A stretch of 64,000 nucleotides of DNA from Synergistaceae bacterium (GTDB taxonomy: Bacteria; Synergistota; Synergistia; Synergistales; Aminobacteriaceae). The DNA lies in assembly GCA_017448795.1 (NCBI GenBank), contig JAFSKV010000021.1, positions 1 through 64,000 of the forward strand, written 5' to 3'. Below are positions 3,000 to 51,374 of the stretch, in pieces. The notes under the pieces were generated by a model that was given only the letters and a program-made list of their open reading frames with translations, searched no databases and was not told the DNA's origin. A program made the position numbers and the translations under genes. Numbering within the stretch: position 1 is the stretch's first letter; the number at the start of each line of letters is the position of its first letter.

Positions 3000-3088
3000 G
3001 ATGGTTTTACCCCCTGATAAAATTTTGGTAGAATGCCTGTAATAATATCCCGTATCAAAAATTTAGGCAACAGCAAAAGGTGTGTATC

Positions 3089-4198
3089 ATGAAACGTTCA
3101 AGGGCTTTCATTCTGGCGGAAATTGTGTTGACTATAATGCTTCAGGCAGGATTCATACTCGTACTGTGCACGTCGTTCTACCTTCTGACATCATTTTACG
3201 CTCAGACACAGCAAGTCCTTGTAGCGAGGGACCATGCCGAGAGAGTCATTTCGTTTGTGGACGACAAGATAAGGCACGCGGGGCTGGGGCTGTGGAAGTG
3301 CGGAAGCCCCCAGATGATTGGCGAGACGCTCGCAAAGATACCTTACTTGGACTGGGGGAATACAAGAGGAAGATACAGGCTTCCTGTTTCGATTTCGAGC
3401 AATGACGGAAAAATGGAGGACACTTATATTCCGTCCAAAACAGACAGTCAGAATGTCGGGGATGTGCTGACGTTGCTTTATGCGCAAAGAGATTTGTCTT
3501 CCGGAGATTCTAACGAGATAATAACCACGTTTGCTGAGACTAAAACACTCGACCCTCTAAAATCAAAGGTAACAGGGAATTATTTAAACGAGGTTGAGGG
3601 TAAAGTTCCTTTGCTTGATAAGAACTCAGACAGTCTGAAACGTTTGACCGACAAATCTCTGTTCAGCTTCAGGTCTAATGCAAAAGATAAAACGCAAGAC
3701 ATAAAGAGATACTCAGTGATGAAAGGTGCAGGAGTCCCTATATACTTGAATGATGCTCCAGCGTCTGGAAAAAACGTTCCTAGCAACCTTACTCTCAAAG
3801 CATTCAACGTCCCGGCCTCAATGTCAAAAGACATCACCATCCCGGCAGGCGATGACCTCATGGGGCTGGTCTGCATGCAGATGTTCGTGCACAACAGAGT
3901 CACAGGCGAAGGCGGGCAGTTCGCTTTCCGTGAACTCAAAACAGACGGAGGAGGCTGGTACAAAACCTACAACCAGGAGAAAAACATCCTCGACGTGTAC
4001 ATGAAGCTAGACACAAGCAGCAGCACCTTCACTCTATGGGTTCTCGCAACAGGAGGCTATGACGTAAACCTAAGCAGCCCCCGCCCCTCATCATGGCCGG
4101 ACAGCGCGACATGGACAGAAGAATATTCCCATCACATCGCCTACGTTTCCCGCGCAACATGGAAGCTCCACAACATTCCGCCCAATTTCACGTGGTAA
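3089..4198 (+). CDS. PilW-like minor pilin / pseudopilin
   Basis: A 369-residue protein with an N-terminal type IV prepilin signal: short basic leader MKRSRA, predicted cleavage before FILAE with Glu at +5, then a hydrophobic helix to about residue 40. The large C-terminal domain resembles PilW-type minor pilins in size and layout, but I see no named family motif in it. I chose ATG 3089 (AAAGG at 3076-3080) over an upstream GTG at 3080 that would overlap the ribosome site. No other pilus gene is adjacent, so its assembly partners lie elsewhere. Its last 11 bases overlap the 3' end of radA on the other strand. Confidence 0.7.
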   Translation: MKRSRAFILAEIVLTIMLQAGFILVLCTSFYLLTSFYAQTQQVLVARDHAERVISFVDDKIRHAGLGLWKCGSPQMIGETLAKIPYLDWGNTRGRYRLPVSISSNDGKMEDTYIPSKTDSQNVGDVLTLLYAQRDLSSGDSNEIITTFAETKTLDPLKSKVTGNYLNEVEGKVPLLDKNSDSLKRLTDKSLFSFRSNAKDKTQDIKRYSVMKGAGVPIYLNDAPASGKNVPSNLTLKAFNVPASMSKDITIPAGDDLMGLVCMQMFVHNRVTGEGGQFAFRELKTDGGGWYKTYNQEKNILDVYMKLDTSSSTFTLWVLATGGYDVNLSSPRPSSWPDSATWTEEYSHHIAYVSRATWKLHNIPPNFTW

Positions 4199-8067: not shown

Positions 8068-9066
8068 TCAAACGATGTACTTCTTGAGGACGGGAATGTG
8101 ATTCAAGATTGCGGATATGGTGAACGAAATCACGAACACAATCGCCGCAATCACCGGGATTGATATTACCGGGCAGAAAGTCAGCGAGTGAAGCCCCATC
8201 TTCCCCAGCAGGTTAATCACAGCGGCATGAACCAGATATGCCCCAAAGGAGTACTGCGACAGTTGACGGATGAATCTCACCGGGAAATTCAGCTTCTCAC
8301 GGAAGAACACGAACACTGCCACTGCCTCGCACAGAGTCGTAACAGTGAGGTTGCCGTAGAATATCGAGCTGGGCGAGTCCTGAGCGAGTGATACTGCTGA
8401 CGAAAGGATGACGCACACAATAACGCTCACAACCCCGGCGGCATATATCACGCGTTCGGCCCTGCGTGAAATCTTCGCGGTGCTGAGGAAGTAGCCGAGC
8501 AGGAAATATCCCGTGAACCCTCCCACAAACTCAAGCATAGGCATCCCGGCCAGCTTCCCCGCAAACTTCCCGTATTCCTCCGAGAACAGCGAGATGATTT
8601 CAACAGTCTCAGGCAGAACGAACGCGAACACAAACGACATCACCAGAAAGTATTTCGTCAGCGTCCCGGACTCAGCAATCTTCCTCATGAACGGCACAAC
8701 CGCATACAGCCCGGCGATCATCCACAGGAACCACATGTGATAATACCCCGTCAGGAACTGCGCAAACGCCTTCAGCGCGTCCCCGTTCTTCACGTAAGCC
8801 CGGCAGGCGTACACCAGCGACCAGAACACAAACGCCGTGAATATCCTGAATATGTACTTGGTGTAGATTTTCTTGGCGGGAATGTCTTTGCTTGGACTGA
8901 GGAACAATGCACCGCTCATCATAACGAACGCAGGGACTGCCCAGCGCACTAAGCCCCCGTGCCAGAAATTCATTGCCTGCCATTGCGATGTGTACACGTC
9001 CGTTGTGTACCAGTTCTGCGCCGCCACATGAAGCACCATCACCGCAAACGCTCCCGTTACCCGCAA
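8068..9066 (-). CDS. Acyltransferase 3 family membrane O-acyltransferase (candidate phase-variable gene)
   Basis: A multi-pass membrane protein of the acyltransferase 3 family (OatA/WecH type), which transfers acetyl or other acyl groups to surface polysaccharides. Visible are about ten hydrophobic segments, the early LRVTGAFAVMVLHV segment with the conserved Arg and His, and YYHMWFLW. The frame given begins at an internal TTG, but family members normally have a few residues before this Arg. In-frame codons upstream (YCFDF, then seven 7-bp repeats) continue the homology-like N-terminus. The best start, ATG at 9142 with GATGAGG eight bases upstream, is out of frame by one base; loss of one repeat unit would join it. 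In the present sequence the gene is therefore probably off or poorly translated. It lies 43 bases after the AsmA-like gene on the same strand. Confidence 0.8.
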   Translation of the reverse strand: MRVTGAFAVMVLHVAAQNWYTTDVYTSQWQAMNFWHGGLVRWAVPAFVMMSGALFLSPSKDIPAKKIYTKYIFRIFTAFVFWSLVYACRAYVKNGDALKAFAQFLTGYYHMWFLWMIAGLYAVVPFMRKIAESGTLTKYFLVMSFVFAFVLPETVEIISLFSEEYGKFAGKLAGMPMLEFVGGFTGYFLLGYFLSTAKISRRAERVIYAAGVVSVIVCVILSSAVSLAQDSPSSIFYGNLTVTTLCEAVAVFVFFREKLNFPVRFIRQLSQYSFGAYLVHAAVINLLGKMGLHSLTFCPVISIPVIAAIVFVISFTISAILNHIPVLKKYIV

Positions 9067-9082
9067 AAAGTCAAAACAGTAG

Positions 9083-9131
9083 GCTCTCTGCTCTCTGCTC
9101 TCTGTTCTCTGCTCTCTGCTCTCTGCTCTCT
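9083..9131. repeat. Seven tandem 7-bp repeats (GCTCTCT) at the acyltransferase 5' end
   Basis: Seven consecutive heptamers occupy 9083-9131. Six are GCTCTCT and the fourth is GTTCTCT. Seven is not a multiple of three, so each unit gained or lost shifts the reading frame. On the minus strand they lie between the ATG at 9142 and the conserved N-terminus of the acyltransferase. Reading from that ATG now gives a 23-codon peptide ending at TGA; with six units (or nine) the frame runs into the enzyme. Confidence 0.9.
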
Positions 9132-9184
9132 GCTATTATCATTATGTGCGCCTCATCAAAATTTCAAGGGTAATATCCCCTATC

Positions 9185-12100
9185 TTACATGCCGATGTTG
9201 AACAGGTTGTCTATCAGCTGCTGCTTGAACTGGTCGCCGGGACTCTCATCTTCCGCACTAGGCGCGCCCTTGCCTACTGGGACTTTGATGCTCATCTTGA
9301 ACTGGACGGAGTCCTTCTGCTTCTCCTCTTCCCCGTTGAGAATGTCAATCGGCAGGAAATCCTCAATCGGCTTCGTGACCTTCAGGTCTCTTAGCTGCGG
9401 CTCAAACGGTGAGTTGGCAAGCGTGAAGGAAACGTTCTGGAAATCCCGCCGCTTTATCCCCATCACACGGCTGGCAGCATCACGAAGGACATTCCTTGCA
9501 AGGCTTCCTGTCATGTACTGGAAAACTCCCTTCATCGCCCCTAAAAGCTGGTCAAGAATCTTCAGGTCAAACCTTCCGTCGCAAAGAAGCCTCATTCCCT
9601 TTCCTGGCAGACCGCAAGCCCCGTTGATCGTGAAGTACCTGTACAGAGGCTCATCAAAACCTGCCCTTGCTCCTGTGCCTGGGTTGAGGAACAGGTCTTT
9701 TCCATCCCAGAAGAATGACCCGCTTATCTTCTCGAACGTTATCTTTCCTGTAGGCGTTATAGTCTCAAGAGCTTTCACCTTCTGCAGGCAACCCTTGCTT
9801 GTCGAAAATTTCCCGTCAGCAAAGCTCAGGTTCATTCCGACGGCGGAGCTTCCCTTCATGCTAACGGCGGCATCGACAGTCCCCACAAGCTCGCCTTCTG
9901 GCATAAAGGGCTGTGCGAGCTTCCCGAAATCTATGTGCGAGGCCTTCACGTCCCCGTGCCACTCGGTTTTGCCGTCCTTCATGTCCGCCTCGAAGGATGT
10001 CCTGACAGTTCCGCCGCTTATTACCGCTTTGCCGTTTGTCATCTGCACCCTGCCCTTGTCAGCCAGATACTTGACGGGAAGGTTGATGTCCGTGATTCTT
10101 ATCTTGTCCAGTATGGTTATGCCGTCAGATTTCGCGTTCACGACAATAGGAGAACCTAGCTTTGTGTTTCCGTGAACGTGGGCGATGACATGACCCTTGA
10201 CGATTCCGGCCATGTCGGGCAGCTGTGTCTCAATTGCGCTGTCAATGTCGAGGGGCTTCGTGTCAACCGTGTAATATATCCCGTCAGGCTTCATCTGAAT
10301 GTCTATGTCTGACTCAGGCTTGAAGTTGTTGATGCGCGCGCCTGCCTTCATGACAAAGTGATTAGGGCTTGGTGAGCTCACGCTTAGGGCGATGTCATGT
10401 ATCTCGGACTTCTGGTAAAGCACGGGCTTGGTGAGCTTTAGGCTTGCTGTAGGCTGGTACAGCGGCCCGGTTACGCTGGCTTTCGCGTCAATCACGCCTT
10501 CAACGGGGGCTTTCTGCATAAAGTTCTTCAGGAGCTTCTTCAGGTCGAGGTGCTTGACGTTTGCCTGAATATTGACTGCACTGGCCATGATGTCCTTCAT
10601 GTTGGGTAAAATATTTCCGCTGCCGATGATTTCCGCGCCGTTCACAGTCGCGCTGACCTTCCTTATATTTACCTGCTTCATGTTCCCGTCAGCCTCGATT
10701 GAAACGCCCGGCACGTCCACAAACCCGGCGGCCTTTATGTTCTTTGCGGTGAGTTTTGCGGCAAGCTGTGAGAGCGTCATATTGCCCCTTGCTGTGATGC
10801 TGGCTGATCCTATGCTGGCGGCATTTCCGGCTTTAACACTGTCGGCGTTGAGATTGGCGGATATGGCGGCTGTACTGAGGCTGCCTTTGATTGCCGCGCT
10901 TCCTTTCACTCTTCCTGATACCGGCATGGATTTATCTTGCAGTTTCAGGGCTGTCATGAGCTGAGCGAGATTCAGGCCGGGAGTAGATGCCGTTATGTCG
11001 AGTACGGGGTTGTTCATGCTTCGGAGATTAACTGTGCCTTTCGCGTTCAGGTTTCCGCCGGGAAGAGATGCTTTCGCCCCGTTGATGCTGAGTATTCCAC
11101 CCTTGAATGAGACGGGTATATCAGCGTCCCCGAATCTCATGGCCTGAAATCCCGTGTTTCTTGCTGACAGTGAGGCGTTGGCTGTTATGGCGTTGATGTC
11201 TGTGAACCTGCCGGAAGCGTCAGCCTTCAGTGAATATTTCCCGGAAATGTCCTGAAGTCCGGGAATAAATTTCAGCTCCAAGTTGCGCACGTCAGCATCA
11301 GCCCGGAAAGTTGAGTCGCCTAGGTTTGCCGTTGCGTTGAGATTCGCCGAGCCGCTGGGGAATGTTGCCTTTGCGCTGCGGATGGTCAGGATGTTGTCCC
11401 GGAATGTTACGGGGATTTCGGCGTTCCCGATGTTTATCCCGGTGTAGCCTGCGTTTTGCGCCGTCAGGAGAGCGTCGGCTTTGATGGCCTTGGTGTCGTT
11501 GAAGCTGCCGGAAGCCTCAGCCCTGAGAGAGTATGCGCCCTTTATCCCTTTCAGCTGTGGGATGAATCGCAGATCAAGATTCCTAGCGTCAGCATTTGCA
11601 GAAAATCTCCCGGTAACAATATCCGCTTCAGCCTTGAGAGCCGCCGAGCTTCCCGGAAATCTCACGCTTGCGTCCGGGATTTTCACGACTCCCCCGGCCA
11701 GGCTCACCGGGATTTCCGCGTTTCCTCCCTTGATGCCCGCTGATGAGAGCCCTGCGTTCCTTGCCGTCAGCAGTGCTTCAGCAACGATGCTCTTGATGTC
11801 GGTGAAATTGCCTGACGCGGCGGCCTTTAGGCTGTACGAGCCTGACACGTCCCGGAGCATGGGGGCATTGCGGGGTTCTATGTTGTTCGCGTCAGCTTTG
11901 GCCGAAAATGTCCCGCTGTCCAAATCCGCATTCCCGGAGGCCGTGATTCTCCCCCGCCCGAAATTCGCAGTGAACCCGGAAAGTTCCGCCCTGTTCGCGC
12001 TTGGGTCATACTCCGCCTCAGCGTCAAGCCCGGTCAGTGTTACGCCATACGCGCCCAGAAGGTCAGATGTGAGCTTTGCTGTTACTCTGAGAGCCTCAGA

Positions 12101-13558
12101 TACTTTCACGCGGGCCGTGATTTTTCCCTGCGGCTTCTCTACAACGCCTGAGAGCTGGGGAACTGCCCTCACAAGCGACGGAATATCAAGGTTCACTACT
12201 GACACAACGACTCCGTCAGGCTTCACATTCCCTTCCTGGTCTGTCACTGCTCCTCCCCTCGCGAAAAGTTTTCCCCCGAATGCCTTTCCTCCAAGCGAAA
12301 TCTGCGGGACATGGCCGGGTGTGAGGCTAACATTCGCTGTGATGTTCTCGGCCGTGTTTATGCCCATAGCTGAGACTGAAGGAATGTCGGCTTTCAGGCT
12401 GGCTCTTGTGCGCTGAAAGATGTCCTGCATTATGTCGCTTGTGATCTGCGTGTCAGCGTCAAATTTCACGTAACCCCCCTCGCCTTTGAGTCCCGCTTCA
12501 GGCGCGAGCATCGCTCCGATTTCCGTCAATGATATGTTCTTGCCCTCGCCTTTCGCCGTGAATCTCATGGCCTCAATATCCCCCGACGCGCTGAGAGTGA
12601 ATCCCGCCGCCTTAGTCGTGAGCGAAGCATCATCAAGCGTGAAATTCCTCCTGCCGTCCCACGTGAAAGGAAGCCGGAAATTCAGCGGTATATCCATGAC
12701 TTCAGCTCTGGGCATTGAGAGAACGCCGGAAGCCGCTATACTGCCGTCATCATCATTGGCTTTTGCGGAAATCTTCGCGTCAGCGCGGCCTGTTGCTTTC
12801 ACTCCGGCGGGGGCAAATTGCATGAAGTCATCAAGCTGTAACGCGCTCAGGAATAATTTTGCGTCAAGAGGCTGGATTTTCCCGGTGAATTTTCCCGTCC
12901 CCTTCGCGCCTATTCGTATGTCTGACGAGATTATTTCTGCTGACGGGAGATTGATGCTTGCTTTTGCTGACAGGGGAAGCGTTTTGCCGCTTGAGACAAT
13001 TTGCGCGTCAAGAAGGAATTTCCCGGCCTCGTCGAGAGTCAGCGCGGAAAGTTCCAGGTTAGCGAACTGAGTCCCGAAATGAACATCACTCACTGAAATG
13101 TGCGAGGGATTGAGCCTGAGATTCATGGGCGGGGTTATGGGCTGGGGCTTGTCCTCTGGTGACGCGGGGAAAAGTGAAGCTATCTTCATTACGCTGTCAA
13201 GGTCTGTGCTGACTCCGTGAACGTTAAGAGACCTGACGAAGGGGATGCCGTCCATTCCTGAGAGGGCCAGATCCCAGTCGGGGCTGACTGAAGCATGACG
13301 GAGAAGAGCGAGAGTCTCATCGCCGGAAATCACGCGCAGGCCGTCAAGAGTGTAGCCGTTTCTGAGAGAGCCTTCAACGCTTTCAACTTCGATTTTCGCG
13401 GGGTAAAGGAAGAAGCTGCCTGCTCTTTCCGCAAGGGGCCTGACGAGCCACGAACCTGTGTCGAACCAGAAGAGAGCCGCTCCCGCCGCAATTGTTATCA
13501 GTGATGTATAGACGAGAAATTTTATGAGCGATCCTACAAAACGCAAGATGAACTTCAC
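9185..13558 (-). CDS. AsmA/TamB-like outer-membrane biogenesis protein
   Basis: A 1457-residue protein with one N-terminal membrane segment (about residues 12-32, FLVYTSLITIAAGAALFW) and a long beta-rich periplasmic region, the layout of AsmA/TamB-type proteins that bridge the envelope and are implicated in phospholipid transport or outer-membrane assembly. Three copies of a segment of about 100 residues, each carrying a YSL-A-ASG-F-D pattern, repeat with a period near 300 bases between about 11.1 and 12.0 kb. The C-terminus has a FKMSIKVPVGKG segment reminiscent of a TamB/DUF748 end. The start is GTG 13558 by position; its ribosome site is weak. The presence of this gene indicates a diderm cell. 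Confidence 0.8.
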   Translation of the reverse strand: MKFILRFVGSLIKFLVYTSLITIAAGAALFWFDTGSWLVRPLAERAGSFFLYPAKIEVESVEGSLRNGYTLDGLRVISGDETLALLRHASVSPDWDLALSGMDGIPFVRSLNVHGVSTDLDSVMKIASLFPASPEDKPQPITPPMNLRLNPSHISVSDVHFGTQFANLELSALTLDEAGKFLLDAQIVSSGKTLPLSAKASINLPSAEIISSDIRIGAKGTGKFTGKIQPLDAKLFLSALQLDDFMQFAPAGVKATGRADAKISAKANDDDGSIAASGVLSMPRAEVMDIPLNFRLPFTWDGRRNFTLDDASLTTKAAGFTLSASGDIEAMRFTAKGEGKNISLTEIGAMLAPEAGLKGEGGYVKFDADTQITSDIMQDIFQRTRASLKADIPSVSAMGINTAENITANVSLTPGHVPQISLGGKAFGGKLFARGGAVTDQEGNVKPDGVVVSVVNLDIPSLVRAVPQLSGVVEKPQGKITARVKVSEALRVTAKLTSDLLGAYGVTLTGLDAEAEYDPSANRAELSGFTANFGRGRITASGNADLDSGTFSAKADANNIEPRNAPMLRDVSGSYSLKAAASGNFTDIKSIVAEALLTARNAGLSSAGIKGGNAEIPVSLAGGVVKIPDASVRFPGSSAALKAEADIVTGRFSANADARNLDLRFIPQLKGIKGAYSLRAEASGSFNDTKAIKADALLTAQNAGYTGINIGNAEIPVTFRDNILTIRSAKATFPSGSANLNATANLGDSTFRADADVRNLELKFIPGLQDISGKYSLKADASGRFTDINAITANASLSARNTGFQAMRFGDADIPVSFKGGILSINGAKASLPGGNLNAKGTVNLRSMNNPVLDITASTPGLNLAQLMTALKLQDKSMPVSGRVKGSAAIKGSLSTAAISANLNADSVKAGNAASIGSASITARGNMTLSQLAAKLTAKNIKAAGFVDVPGVSIEADGNMKQVNIRKVSATVNGAEIIGSGNILPNMKDIMASAVNIQANVKHLDLKKLLKNFMQKAPVEGVIDAKASVTGPLYQPTASLKLTKPVLYQKSEIHDIALSVSSPSPNHFVMKAGARINNFKPESDIDIQMKPDGIYYTVDTKPLDIDSAIETQLPDMAGIVKGHVIAHVHGNTKLGSPIVVNAKSDGITILDKIRITDINLPVKYLADKGRVQMTNGKAVISGGTVRTSFEADMKDGKTEWHGDVKASHIDFGKLAQPFMPEGELVGTVDAAVSMKGSSAVGMNLSFADGKFSTSKGCLQKVKALETITPTGKITFEKISGSFFWDGKDLFLNPGTGARAGFDEPLYRYFTINGACGLPGKGMRLLCDGRFDLKILDQLLGAMKGVFQYMTGSLARNVLRDAASRVMGIKRRDFQNVSFTLANSPFEPQLRDLKVTKPIEDFLPIDILNGEEEKQKDSVQFKMSIKVPVGKGAPSAEDESPGDQFKQQLIDNLFNIGM

Positions 13559-31316: not shown

Positions 31317-32135
31317 TTGACACGGAAATTTTTCACGGCATTCATTCTCACGCTCTCATTGTCGGCCATAGCTTGCGGCGCAGAGTCAGGCGACAAAGTC
31401 TTGGCTCGCGTAGGCAGCGACGACATAACAGAGTCCGAAGTCCTGGAGTTCATACAGCCGTTCGGACAGCAGGCCATGATGCTTTACGCCACAGAGCAGG
31501 GGCGCAAGATGATTCTCGACGACGTAATATCGATGAGGCTCTACGCTCTTGACGCTGAGGACTCAAAACTCGGCCAGTCCCCGGAAGTACAAGCCCAGCT
31601 TAACGGCGCGAGGCGTGCTATTCTTGCTCAGGCGGCAATGAGGGACGCAATAAAGGATCTCACAGTGAGCGACGACGAGGCCCGAAAATTCTACGACGAG
31701 AACCCGGCCATGTTCAAGAATCCTGAGAGGGTTCACGCCCGGCACATTCTAGTGAGCGGCGATGAGAATCTCGCAAAGGTTCAGGATGAGCTTAAGGCAG
31801 GCAAATCCTTTGACGTTGTCGCAAAAGAGTACTCGATTGACCCGGGAAGCGCGGCTAACGGCGGGGACTTGGGGGAATTTCCGCGCGGAATGATGGTGCC
31901 TGAGTTCGAGAAGGCGGCGTTTGCGCTGAAGAATCCGGGGGACGTGTCAGAGCCAATCAAGACACAATTCGGCTGGCACATAATCAAGCTGGAGGAGCAT
32001 ATCCCGGAGTCGCCGATACCGTTCGAGCAGGTCAAGGCAAGACTGACACAGGAACTGAAGGATCAGAAAACGCAGAAAGTTCTTCAGGACAAGGCAAAGG
32101 TTCTTGAGGAGAAGTACAAGGTAGAACGTTTCTAG
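31317..32135 (+). CDS. Periplasmic parvulin-type peptidyl-prolyl isomerase
   Basis: A 272-residue exported foldase. It has an N-terminal signal peptide (FFTAFILTLSLSAIACGA; the Cys could be a lipobox-like site), a SurA/PrsA-type N-terminal helical region, and a parvulin domain with VHARHILVSGDE, ANGGDLGEFPRGMMVPEFE and TQFGWHIIKLEE. It assists folding of exported and outer-membrane proteins. The start is TTG 31317, with AGGAG at 31304-31308. Monocistronic. Confidence 0.9.
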   Translation: MTRKFFTAFILTLSLSAIACGAESGDKVLARVGSDDITESEVLEFIQPFGQQAMMLYATEQGRKMILDDVISMRLYALDAEDSKLGQSPEVQAQLNGARRAILAQAAMRDAIKDLTVSDDEARKFYDENPAMFKNPERVHARHILVSGDENLAKVQDELKAGKSFDVVAKEYSIDPGSAANGGDLGEFPRGMMVPEFEKAAFALKNPGDVSEPIKTQFGWHIIKLEEHIPESPIPFEQVKARLTQELKDQKTQKVLQDKAKVLEEKYKVERF

Positions 32136-32138
32136 TGA

Positions 32139-32200
32139 TGAGTGATGAGTGGTTAGTGATTAGGTTTTCGCCTGACCGCTAGCCACTTCTCACTAGCCGC
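32139..32200. terminator. Long imperfect hairpin between convergent genes
   Basis: AGTGATGAGTGGTTAGTG (about 32145-32165) pairs imperfectly with CGCTAGCCACTTCTCACT (about 32178-32195) around a TTTTCG loop. About 18 of 24 positions match, and more with G-U pairs. It probably terminates the parvulin gene and argH. Its low-complexity, GTGA-rich arms look like a degenerate repeat element rather than a simple terminator. Confidence 0.5.
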
Positions 32201-50456: not shown

Positions 50457-51374
50457 ATGTCTGAAGCTGTACATTCTTCAGCAAGCAAGCAAGCAAGCAA
50501 GCAAGCCTGCCTCATTTTAGCATATAAGCCGGATCTTGTATTCCGTACACTTATCCAGATGCTCGACCACCCGAAAAACGACATCTTCATCCACATGGAC
50601 GCAAAGACGGCCTCATACGACCCCGCCGACACAGAAGCCCTCGTGAAACACAGCAGGGTTGTCCACGTCCCGCGCATAAGGGTGCAATGGGGCGCGTACT
50701 CGCAGGTTGAGGCTGATATGCTGATGCTTGAGGCCGCTACATCACAGGGGCATTACGGGCATTATCACATTCTGTCCAACGCTTGCCTGCCAATCAAGAC
50801 TCAGGACGAAATCGCCGCGTTCTTTGAGGCTCATCACGGAGTCGAGTTCGTCAGCTTCCCAAGTGAGACGTTCACATTCTCGTCCGAAGAGCGCGTAAGG
50901 TACTACTACCCGTTTCAGGAAATCAAGGGCAGGAAAGGCAGCCTTCCTGTTCGAGCCATGGCCAAGCTTGCGCTAATCCTCCAGAAAATCCTTCACGTTC
51001 ACCGCAACAAGGGCATCAAGTTTCAGAAGGGCGGGGACTGGTTCAGCATAACGGATGAGCTTGCTAGGTATGCTCTCTCCAAACGTGAATGGATAAGGGC
51101 TGTCTTCCATGACACATATATACCGACAGAAGAGTTCATGCACACGCTCATAATCAACTCACATTTCAGCAACAGACTGTTCCGCGTGGAAGCATTGACT
51201 CTGGGGCTTCCTCAGCACATGCGCCTCATCGATTGGAAGCGCGGAGAGCCTTACACGTTCCGGCTGTCAGACCTTGAGGAAATCCAGAAATCCCCGGCCA
51301 TGTTCGCCCGGAAATTCGACGAGGCAGTTGACCCGGAAATCATCAGGAGGATACAGGAGCTTTATTCCCGCTGA
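50457..51374 (+). CDS. GT14-like (Core-2/I-branching) glycosyltransferase with N-terminal tetranucleotide repeat
   Basis: A 305-residue enzyme of the Branch (GT14, beta-1,6-GlcNAc transferase-like) family. The domain begins at ACLILAYKPD and continues with MLDHPKNDIFIHMDAK, QWGAYSQVEADMLML, YGHYHILSNACLPIK, GDWFSITDELARYAL and PTEEFMHTLI. Such bacterial enzymes decorate surface polysaccharides. The N-terminal SASKQASKQ is encoded by six GCAA repeats just before the domain, so each gain or loss of a unit would break the frame. At present ATG 50457 is in frame (ON), with AAGGGAG 13 bases upstream. GTG 50391, close to AGGGGA, is an alternative start, also in frame. It lies downstream of the MATE gene. 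Confidence 0.82.
   Translation: MSEAVHSSASKQASKQACLILAYKPDLVFRTLIQMLDHPKNDIFIHMDAKTASYDPADTEALVKHSRVVHVPRIRVQWGAYSQVEADMLMLEAATSQGHYGHYHILSNACLPIKTQDEIAAFFEAHHGVEFVSFPSETFTFSSEERVRYYYPFQEIKGRKGSLPVRAMAKLALILQKILHVHRNKGIKFQKGGDWFSITDELARYALSKREWIRAVFHDTYIPTEEFMHTLIINSHFSNRLFRVEALTLGLPQHMRLIDWKRGEPYTFRLSDLEEIQKSPAMFARKFDEAVDPEIIRRIQELYSR
50481..50506. repeat. Tetranucleotide tract (GCAA)6 in the GT14 gene
   Basis: Six perfect GCAA units and a partial GC occupy 50481-50506, inside codons 9-17 of the glycosyltransferase. Four is not divisible by three, so slippage switches frame. Tracts of this kind (for example CAAT in lic genes of Haemophilus) drive phase variation of surface glycans. Confidence 0.9.

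Follow-up and report, generated by a model that had tools for sequence, protein, structure and literature searches.

The locus considered here raises the question of whether a tandem heptanucleotide repeat, which follows the start codon of an acyltransferase gene and precedes the part encoding the membrane domain, serves as an on/off switch for that enzyme. It lies on the minus strand of a 64,000-nucleotide (nt) stretch of DNA from a Synergistaceae bacterium (contig JAFSKV010000021.1, positions 1 to 64,000; hereafter the window), in which an earlier note, made from the letters alone, had described it as a phase-variation switch. On the basis of the sequence and of comparison with related genomes, we regard it as highly probable that this AGAGAGC array is a simple-sequence contingency locus that brings about translational phase variation by slipped-strand mispairing. 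Units of 7 nt would be gained or lost by slippage in the stretch that separates the start codon from the acyltransferase-3 (AT3) membrane domain; each such change would shift the reading frame, with about one length in three giving full-length enzyme and the others an early stop. The ON product would carry a repeat-encoded hydrophilic N-terminal tail with the period AESREQR, and cells within one population would come to differ in surface acylation, possibly with a benefit against, for example, phage or host immunity.

Array and reading frame at the acyltransferase start

The array (9083-9134) has a period of 7, with 7.4 copies and 95% matches, and is the top-scoring tandem repeat of the 64 kb according to Tandem Repeats Finder. 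A single AGAGAAC unit interrupts it, and the longest uninterrupted stretches are 22 and 29 nt. The frame that opens at the ATG (9142-9140) translates as MIIAESREQRAENREQRAESLLF, 23 codons that end at TGA 9073-9071, and therefore the assembled seven-unit allele is OFF. The conserved acyltransferase frame begins at TAC 9081, 61 nt from the ATG; as this distance is 1 modulo 3, either six units (54 nt) or nine (75 nt) would bring the two into the same frame. The conserved frame is closed by TGATAATAG on the upstream side of the array and hence offers no start there in the seven-unit state. The earlier note had placed seven repeats between ATG 9142, preceded by GATGAGG, and the conserved N-terminus of an O-acyltransferase, with the ATG frame stopping after 23 codons and six or nine units restoring it; the sequence and coordinates, the translation, the arithmetic and the Pfam assignment given below all bear this out.

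Table 1. Features of the window that bear on the two candidate switches
Feature	Position	Strand	Remarks
Heptanucleotide array	9083..9134	-	seven AGAGAGC units at 9083-9131 (4th is AGAGAAC) and a partial unit
Presumed start codon, ATG	9140..9142	-	opens 23-codon frame at present (OFF); homologues lacking a long array start at the equivalent ATG
GATGAGG, Shine-Dalgarno-like	9151..9157	-	GGAGG at the same place in several relatives
TGA closing the ATG frame in the 7-unit state	9071..9073	-	from translation
TTG, sole alternative start in the conserved frame that keeps R7	9064..9066	-	not conserved in homologues
AT3 coding region, PF01757	8068..9081	-	337 codons from TAC 9081 to the stop; R7-X10-H18 motif
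Large upstream gene	9185..13558	-	weak AsmA/TamB-like match; 42 nt before ATG 9142
(AGCA)6.75 tract	50480..50506	+	5' coding part of glycosyltransferase gene; in frame (ON); second candidate switch
Core-2/I-branching (Branch, PF02485) glycosyltransferase gene	50457..51374	+	from ATG 50457; carries the AGCA tract

Such a repeat is not readily produced by chance: of 60 copies of the window simulated with an order-3 Markov model, 59 contained no non-triplet perfect array of at least 20 nt. The real window holds two such loci (the AGAGAGC array and the AGCA tract at 50480), and a chance origin was rejected on these grounds. Membership in a dispersed intergenic repeat family was likewise rejected for this genome, in which the unit is found only at this locus, the arrays of relatives lying mostly 5' of glycan genes.

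The frame behind the array encodes what appears to be a complete enzyme. It matches PF01757 over its full length (residues 2-327 to profile positions 3-325; E-value 3.9e-30, 105.5 bits against a cut-off of 31), has no other Pfam match, and is free of stops across all 337 codons. Among 16 homologues there is no variation at Asp4, Leu6 and His18 and hardly any at Tyr2 and Arg7; R7 and H18 fit the R/K-X10-H motif, which lies in the first transmembrane helix of AT3 proteins and is essential in OafA (PMC7448272). The most likely substrate is a surface glycan, to judge from the family of the enzyme and from the other genes that carry such arrays. The large gene upstream is probably co-transcribed with it.

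If the array were merely an inert 5' repeat, translation would begin at the internal TTG 9066 whatever the repeat number. This codon (Leu6) is in frame and retains the R7-X10-H18 motif, and the frame downstream is intact in OFF alleles, as that explanation would have it. Initiation there would, however, remove the invariant Asp4 and the near-invariant Tyr2; several homologues have TTA or CTG in its place; no Shine-Dalgarno sequence is visible at a normal spacing from it; and the homologues that lack a long array all have an upstream in-frame ATG. The first in-frame ATG within the gene, Met15, lies beyond R7. Because of the position of Met15, the loss of Asp4 and the lack of conservation of the TTG, an internal start giving a normal enzyme is unlikely, and the inert-repeat explanation, rejected as a main model on the latter two grounds, seems to us very improbable.

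The array may also be asked whether it still moves. A locus that was once switchable could have become frozen in the OFF state, its interrupted array no longer slipping and its gene heading to decay. The mutated AGAGAAC unit does split the array, and one homologue (G032) is degenerate, with stops; yet the window frame remains open with its motif residues conserved, and the perfect tracts that remain are similar in length to those found in relatives both ON and OFF. We consider a frozen locus improbable.

Orthologous loci in related genomes

If the array is a switch, related genomes would be expected to differ in its length. The genus of the window is represented here by 43 genomes, one per species, and a homologue of the acyltransferase is present in 22 of the 61 genomes searched. 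The protein-matching contigs come from organisms labelled Synergistaceae bacterium, uncultured Synergistales and uncultured Fretibacterium, several of them from the gut of goat, sheep or deer, and the closest named relatives are mostly of ruminant-gut origin; on viral contigs only remote homologues (22-28%) were found, and no strain of the window species was among the matches.

Eleven homologues with a readable upstream region carry arrays of at least 2.9 copies (a threshold set after the data had been inspected) directly before the conserved YFDFLR codons. The units are AGAGAGC, AGACAGC, AGAAGGC, GTCAGGA, ACCAG and GACAC, 7 or 5 nt in length and never a multiple of 3. An in-frame ATG is present in all ten homologues that have no array or only short remnants, and in one of the eleven array-bearing ones; the other ten, which have no frame from ATG to domain, include G032, where an in-phase ATG is cut off by TAA. 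Two array-bearing copies (G029 and G009 C7), which begin at contig ends, were left out of the counts. At three junctions with near-identical flanks (GAGGCGCATATAATGAyAAT ... AGATrCCACTA) the AGACAGC unit occurs 2, 3 and 14 times, corresponding to ON, OFF and ON. In the protein tree, the clade of the window enzyme (100/100) contains AGAGAGC x7, ACCAG x5, AGACAGC x2 and a member with no array, and therefore the letters of the unit turn over faster than its position.

The locus thus has several of the features by which contingency loci are recognized: a non-triplet tandem repeat between start codon and functional domain, an intact frame behind the OFF array, a unit number that differs between related genomes (here, between species), and changes in that number that toggle an open and a stopped frame, according to both the frame arithmetic and the AGACAGC series in orthologues. 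This is the layout that had been proposed from the window alone, and relatives reproduce it, with non-triplet arrays at the same place and, where no long array is present, a start at an in-frame ATG within the same leader. Invariance of repeat number among relatives, which the earlier note had singled out as evidence against a switch, is not observed.

Several observations nonetheless weigh against such a switch, or against its being active. The variation in unit number is that between species, and a change of length at the window locus itself is presumed from it. The AGAGAAC unit should lower slippage and suggests no very recent turnover, and an interrupted array of only moderate length may switch at a low rate. 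Some array loci (G028 C88b, G002 and G004 C62) have no clear ATG and may be decaying rather than switching. On the side of a switch, hints of length polymorphism come from assembly breaks: by our count, about 11 of 32 array positions lie at contig ends, and, more tellingly, contigs C236 and C317 of G007 overlap by exactly 87 nt (leader, 42 nt; array, 45 nt) and then stop. When an assembly branches behind an array that is anchored in this way, reads of differing array length are a likely cause, but the overlap could equally stem from a paralogue that shares the leader, and arrays longer than the assembly k-mer can break contigs without any polymorphism.

Two further cases deserve mention. G028 has eight matches to the acyltransferase (L042, which is G028:C88, and L039, L040 and L044 among them), some of them adjacent copies or fragments interrupted by stops; the gene may have been duplicated and have decayed around the switch. 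A homologue with 42% identity in a Clostridia metagenome-assembled genome from roe deer rumen (RGIG5109; L131:2195-2220) has an (AACA)6.5 tract, in frame, between start and domain, and may represent a parallel switch.

Arrays on other surface-glycan genes

Using three units of the CAG-type heptamer as a search pattern, and the reversed pattern as a control, we found arrays in 19 of 37 congeneric genomes, as against none of 24 genomes from other genera in the order; the control was almost empty, except for one congeneric genome (G023) with eight matches. Another fourteen arrays stand immediately 5' of intact frames, which run for 157-472 codons when measured from the array and encode AT3, GT2, GT4, GT8, GT11, Bac_transf, methyltransferases and an FrhB_FdhB_C protein. 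Seven of the fourteen have an in-frame ATG, two only a GTG or TTG, and five no in-frame start. Taken together with the acyltransferase set, 8 of 25 loci, or about one third, are ON, a value that is compatible with the one third expected for array lengths that move freely.

The AGCA tract of the window would extend this pattern to a second repeat type. Two homologues of its glycosyltransferase in G026 (L204 and L211) share a similar leader, GCTGTACATTCTTC, with shorter AGCA tracts, of 23 and 20 nt, both OFF, and these loci match the picture drawn from the heptamer arrays.

An exception to the location of arrays 5' of glycan genes is found in G018: an AGAGAGC array of 75 nt (L046 at about 3078-3152; G018:C18:24577-24651), which has a TTGAC leader but no long frame behind it, is flanked by an SDR gene and a flagellin-like gene. 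In G033, a 71-nt array (L093:421-491; G033:C75:5420-5490) is built of CGTGAGT, a heptamer not of the CAG type; this array and the eight control matches in G023 indicate that further heptamer families exist in the genus. The window itself has a TAGTGAT x4.4 repeat at 32133-32163, intergenic between two convergent genes, for which no link to a start codon was seen.

The motif TTGAC stands just before the ATG at many of the array-bearing glycan genes (for example L085, L087, L089 and L092) and is rare before ordinary open reading frames of the window (1 of 47); candidate roles for it are those of a promoter element or of a part of a shared start module. The former would suit transcriptional tuning, in which the array would act through the spacing of the promoter or leader, like the 7-bp repeats upstream of Haemophilus influenzae hmw1A, and not through the reading frame, and at many array loci of the genus TTGAC is indeed accompanied by a TATAAT- or ATAAT-like sequence before the array. 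The spacing from TTGAC to the AT-rich motif, read by eye, differs widely between loci, however; the array-free G030_C6 and G009_C15 retain a purine-rich, ribosome-site-like stretch and the ATG but not TATAAT; and the avoidance of multiples of 3 among the acyltransferase-adjacent units, all of 5 or 7 nt, points to the frame. The promoter-spacing model was judged less likely from the TTGAC survey and the upstream sequences, and we place it lowest among the alternatives, with hardly any weight. As for a start module, made up of a ribosome site, often TTGAC, an ATG and a CAG-type heptamer array, the evidence seems to us evenly balanced as to whether the genus has a multi-gene repertoire in which this module is placed on many unrelated surface-glycan genes and is itself the evolving unit, the letters of the array being replaced while position and non-triplet length are kept, such that cells would combine many independent on/off states of the coat.

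Significance and comparison with known systems

In the open-access literature we found nothing relevant on phase variation in Synergistota (Synergistetes). The mechanism itself is already known; as far as we searched that literature, what is new is that it should occur in this group of organisms, that it should extend across a range of glycan genes and that the sequence of the unit changes at a fixed place. Repeat-driven phase variation has been documented mostly in pathogens, which according to a recent review may reflect database bias (PMC11868660). An uncultured gut genus with a many-gene repertoire of heptanucleotide switches would, if real, bear directly on that question, since metagenome reads already available allow the lengths of the repeats to be counted. 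The switch stays in place although the letters of its unit change, which suggests that selection acts on switchability itself.

At the switch, the window locus works like that of NeuO, the capsule O-acetyltransferase of Escherichia coli K1, but it is not a member of the NeuO family. NeuO belongs to the left-handed beta-helix acetyltransferases and is not an AT3 membrane protein; the window enzyme, whose only Pfam match is Acyl_transf_3, showed no homology to that family. The neuO gene, carried by prophage CUS-3, has a heptanucleotide AAGACTC repeat in its 5' coding region, gives the full-length protein only in the right class modulo 3, and is OFF in 42 of 64 complete E. coli K1 genomes (PMC13001214). 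The two systems share a heptamer in the 5' coding region, a frame set by its number modulo 3, the O-acetylation of a surface glycan (presumed for the window enzyme) and a proportion of about one third ON. They differ in that neuO is prophage-borne and described with a single unit sequence, whereas the present gene stands beside housekeeping genes and its unit changes from one species to another.

Within the AT3 family the nearest case is oafA of H. influenzae, a phase-variable lipooligosaccharide O-acetyltransferase with a simple sequence repeat (PMC9558356, PMC2651432), although its GCAA tract is in the middle of the gene and the 7-nt unit of the window at the extreme 5' end. The hmw1A and hmw2A genes of the same species also have heptanucleotide tandem repeats of varying number, but in the promoter, about 100 bp upstream, where they tune transcription (PMC2651432). 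The lipopolysaccharide glycosyltransferases of H. influenzae (lic2A, lgtC and others) resemble the situation described here in that several surface-glycan genes of one genome carry simple sequence repeats in their 5' coding regions (PMC2651432); there the repeats are mostly tetranucleotides and the organism is a pathogen, whereas the uncultured gut Synergistota have heptanucleotides and, in some cases, tetranucleotides (AGCA).
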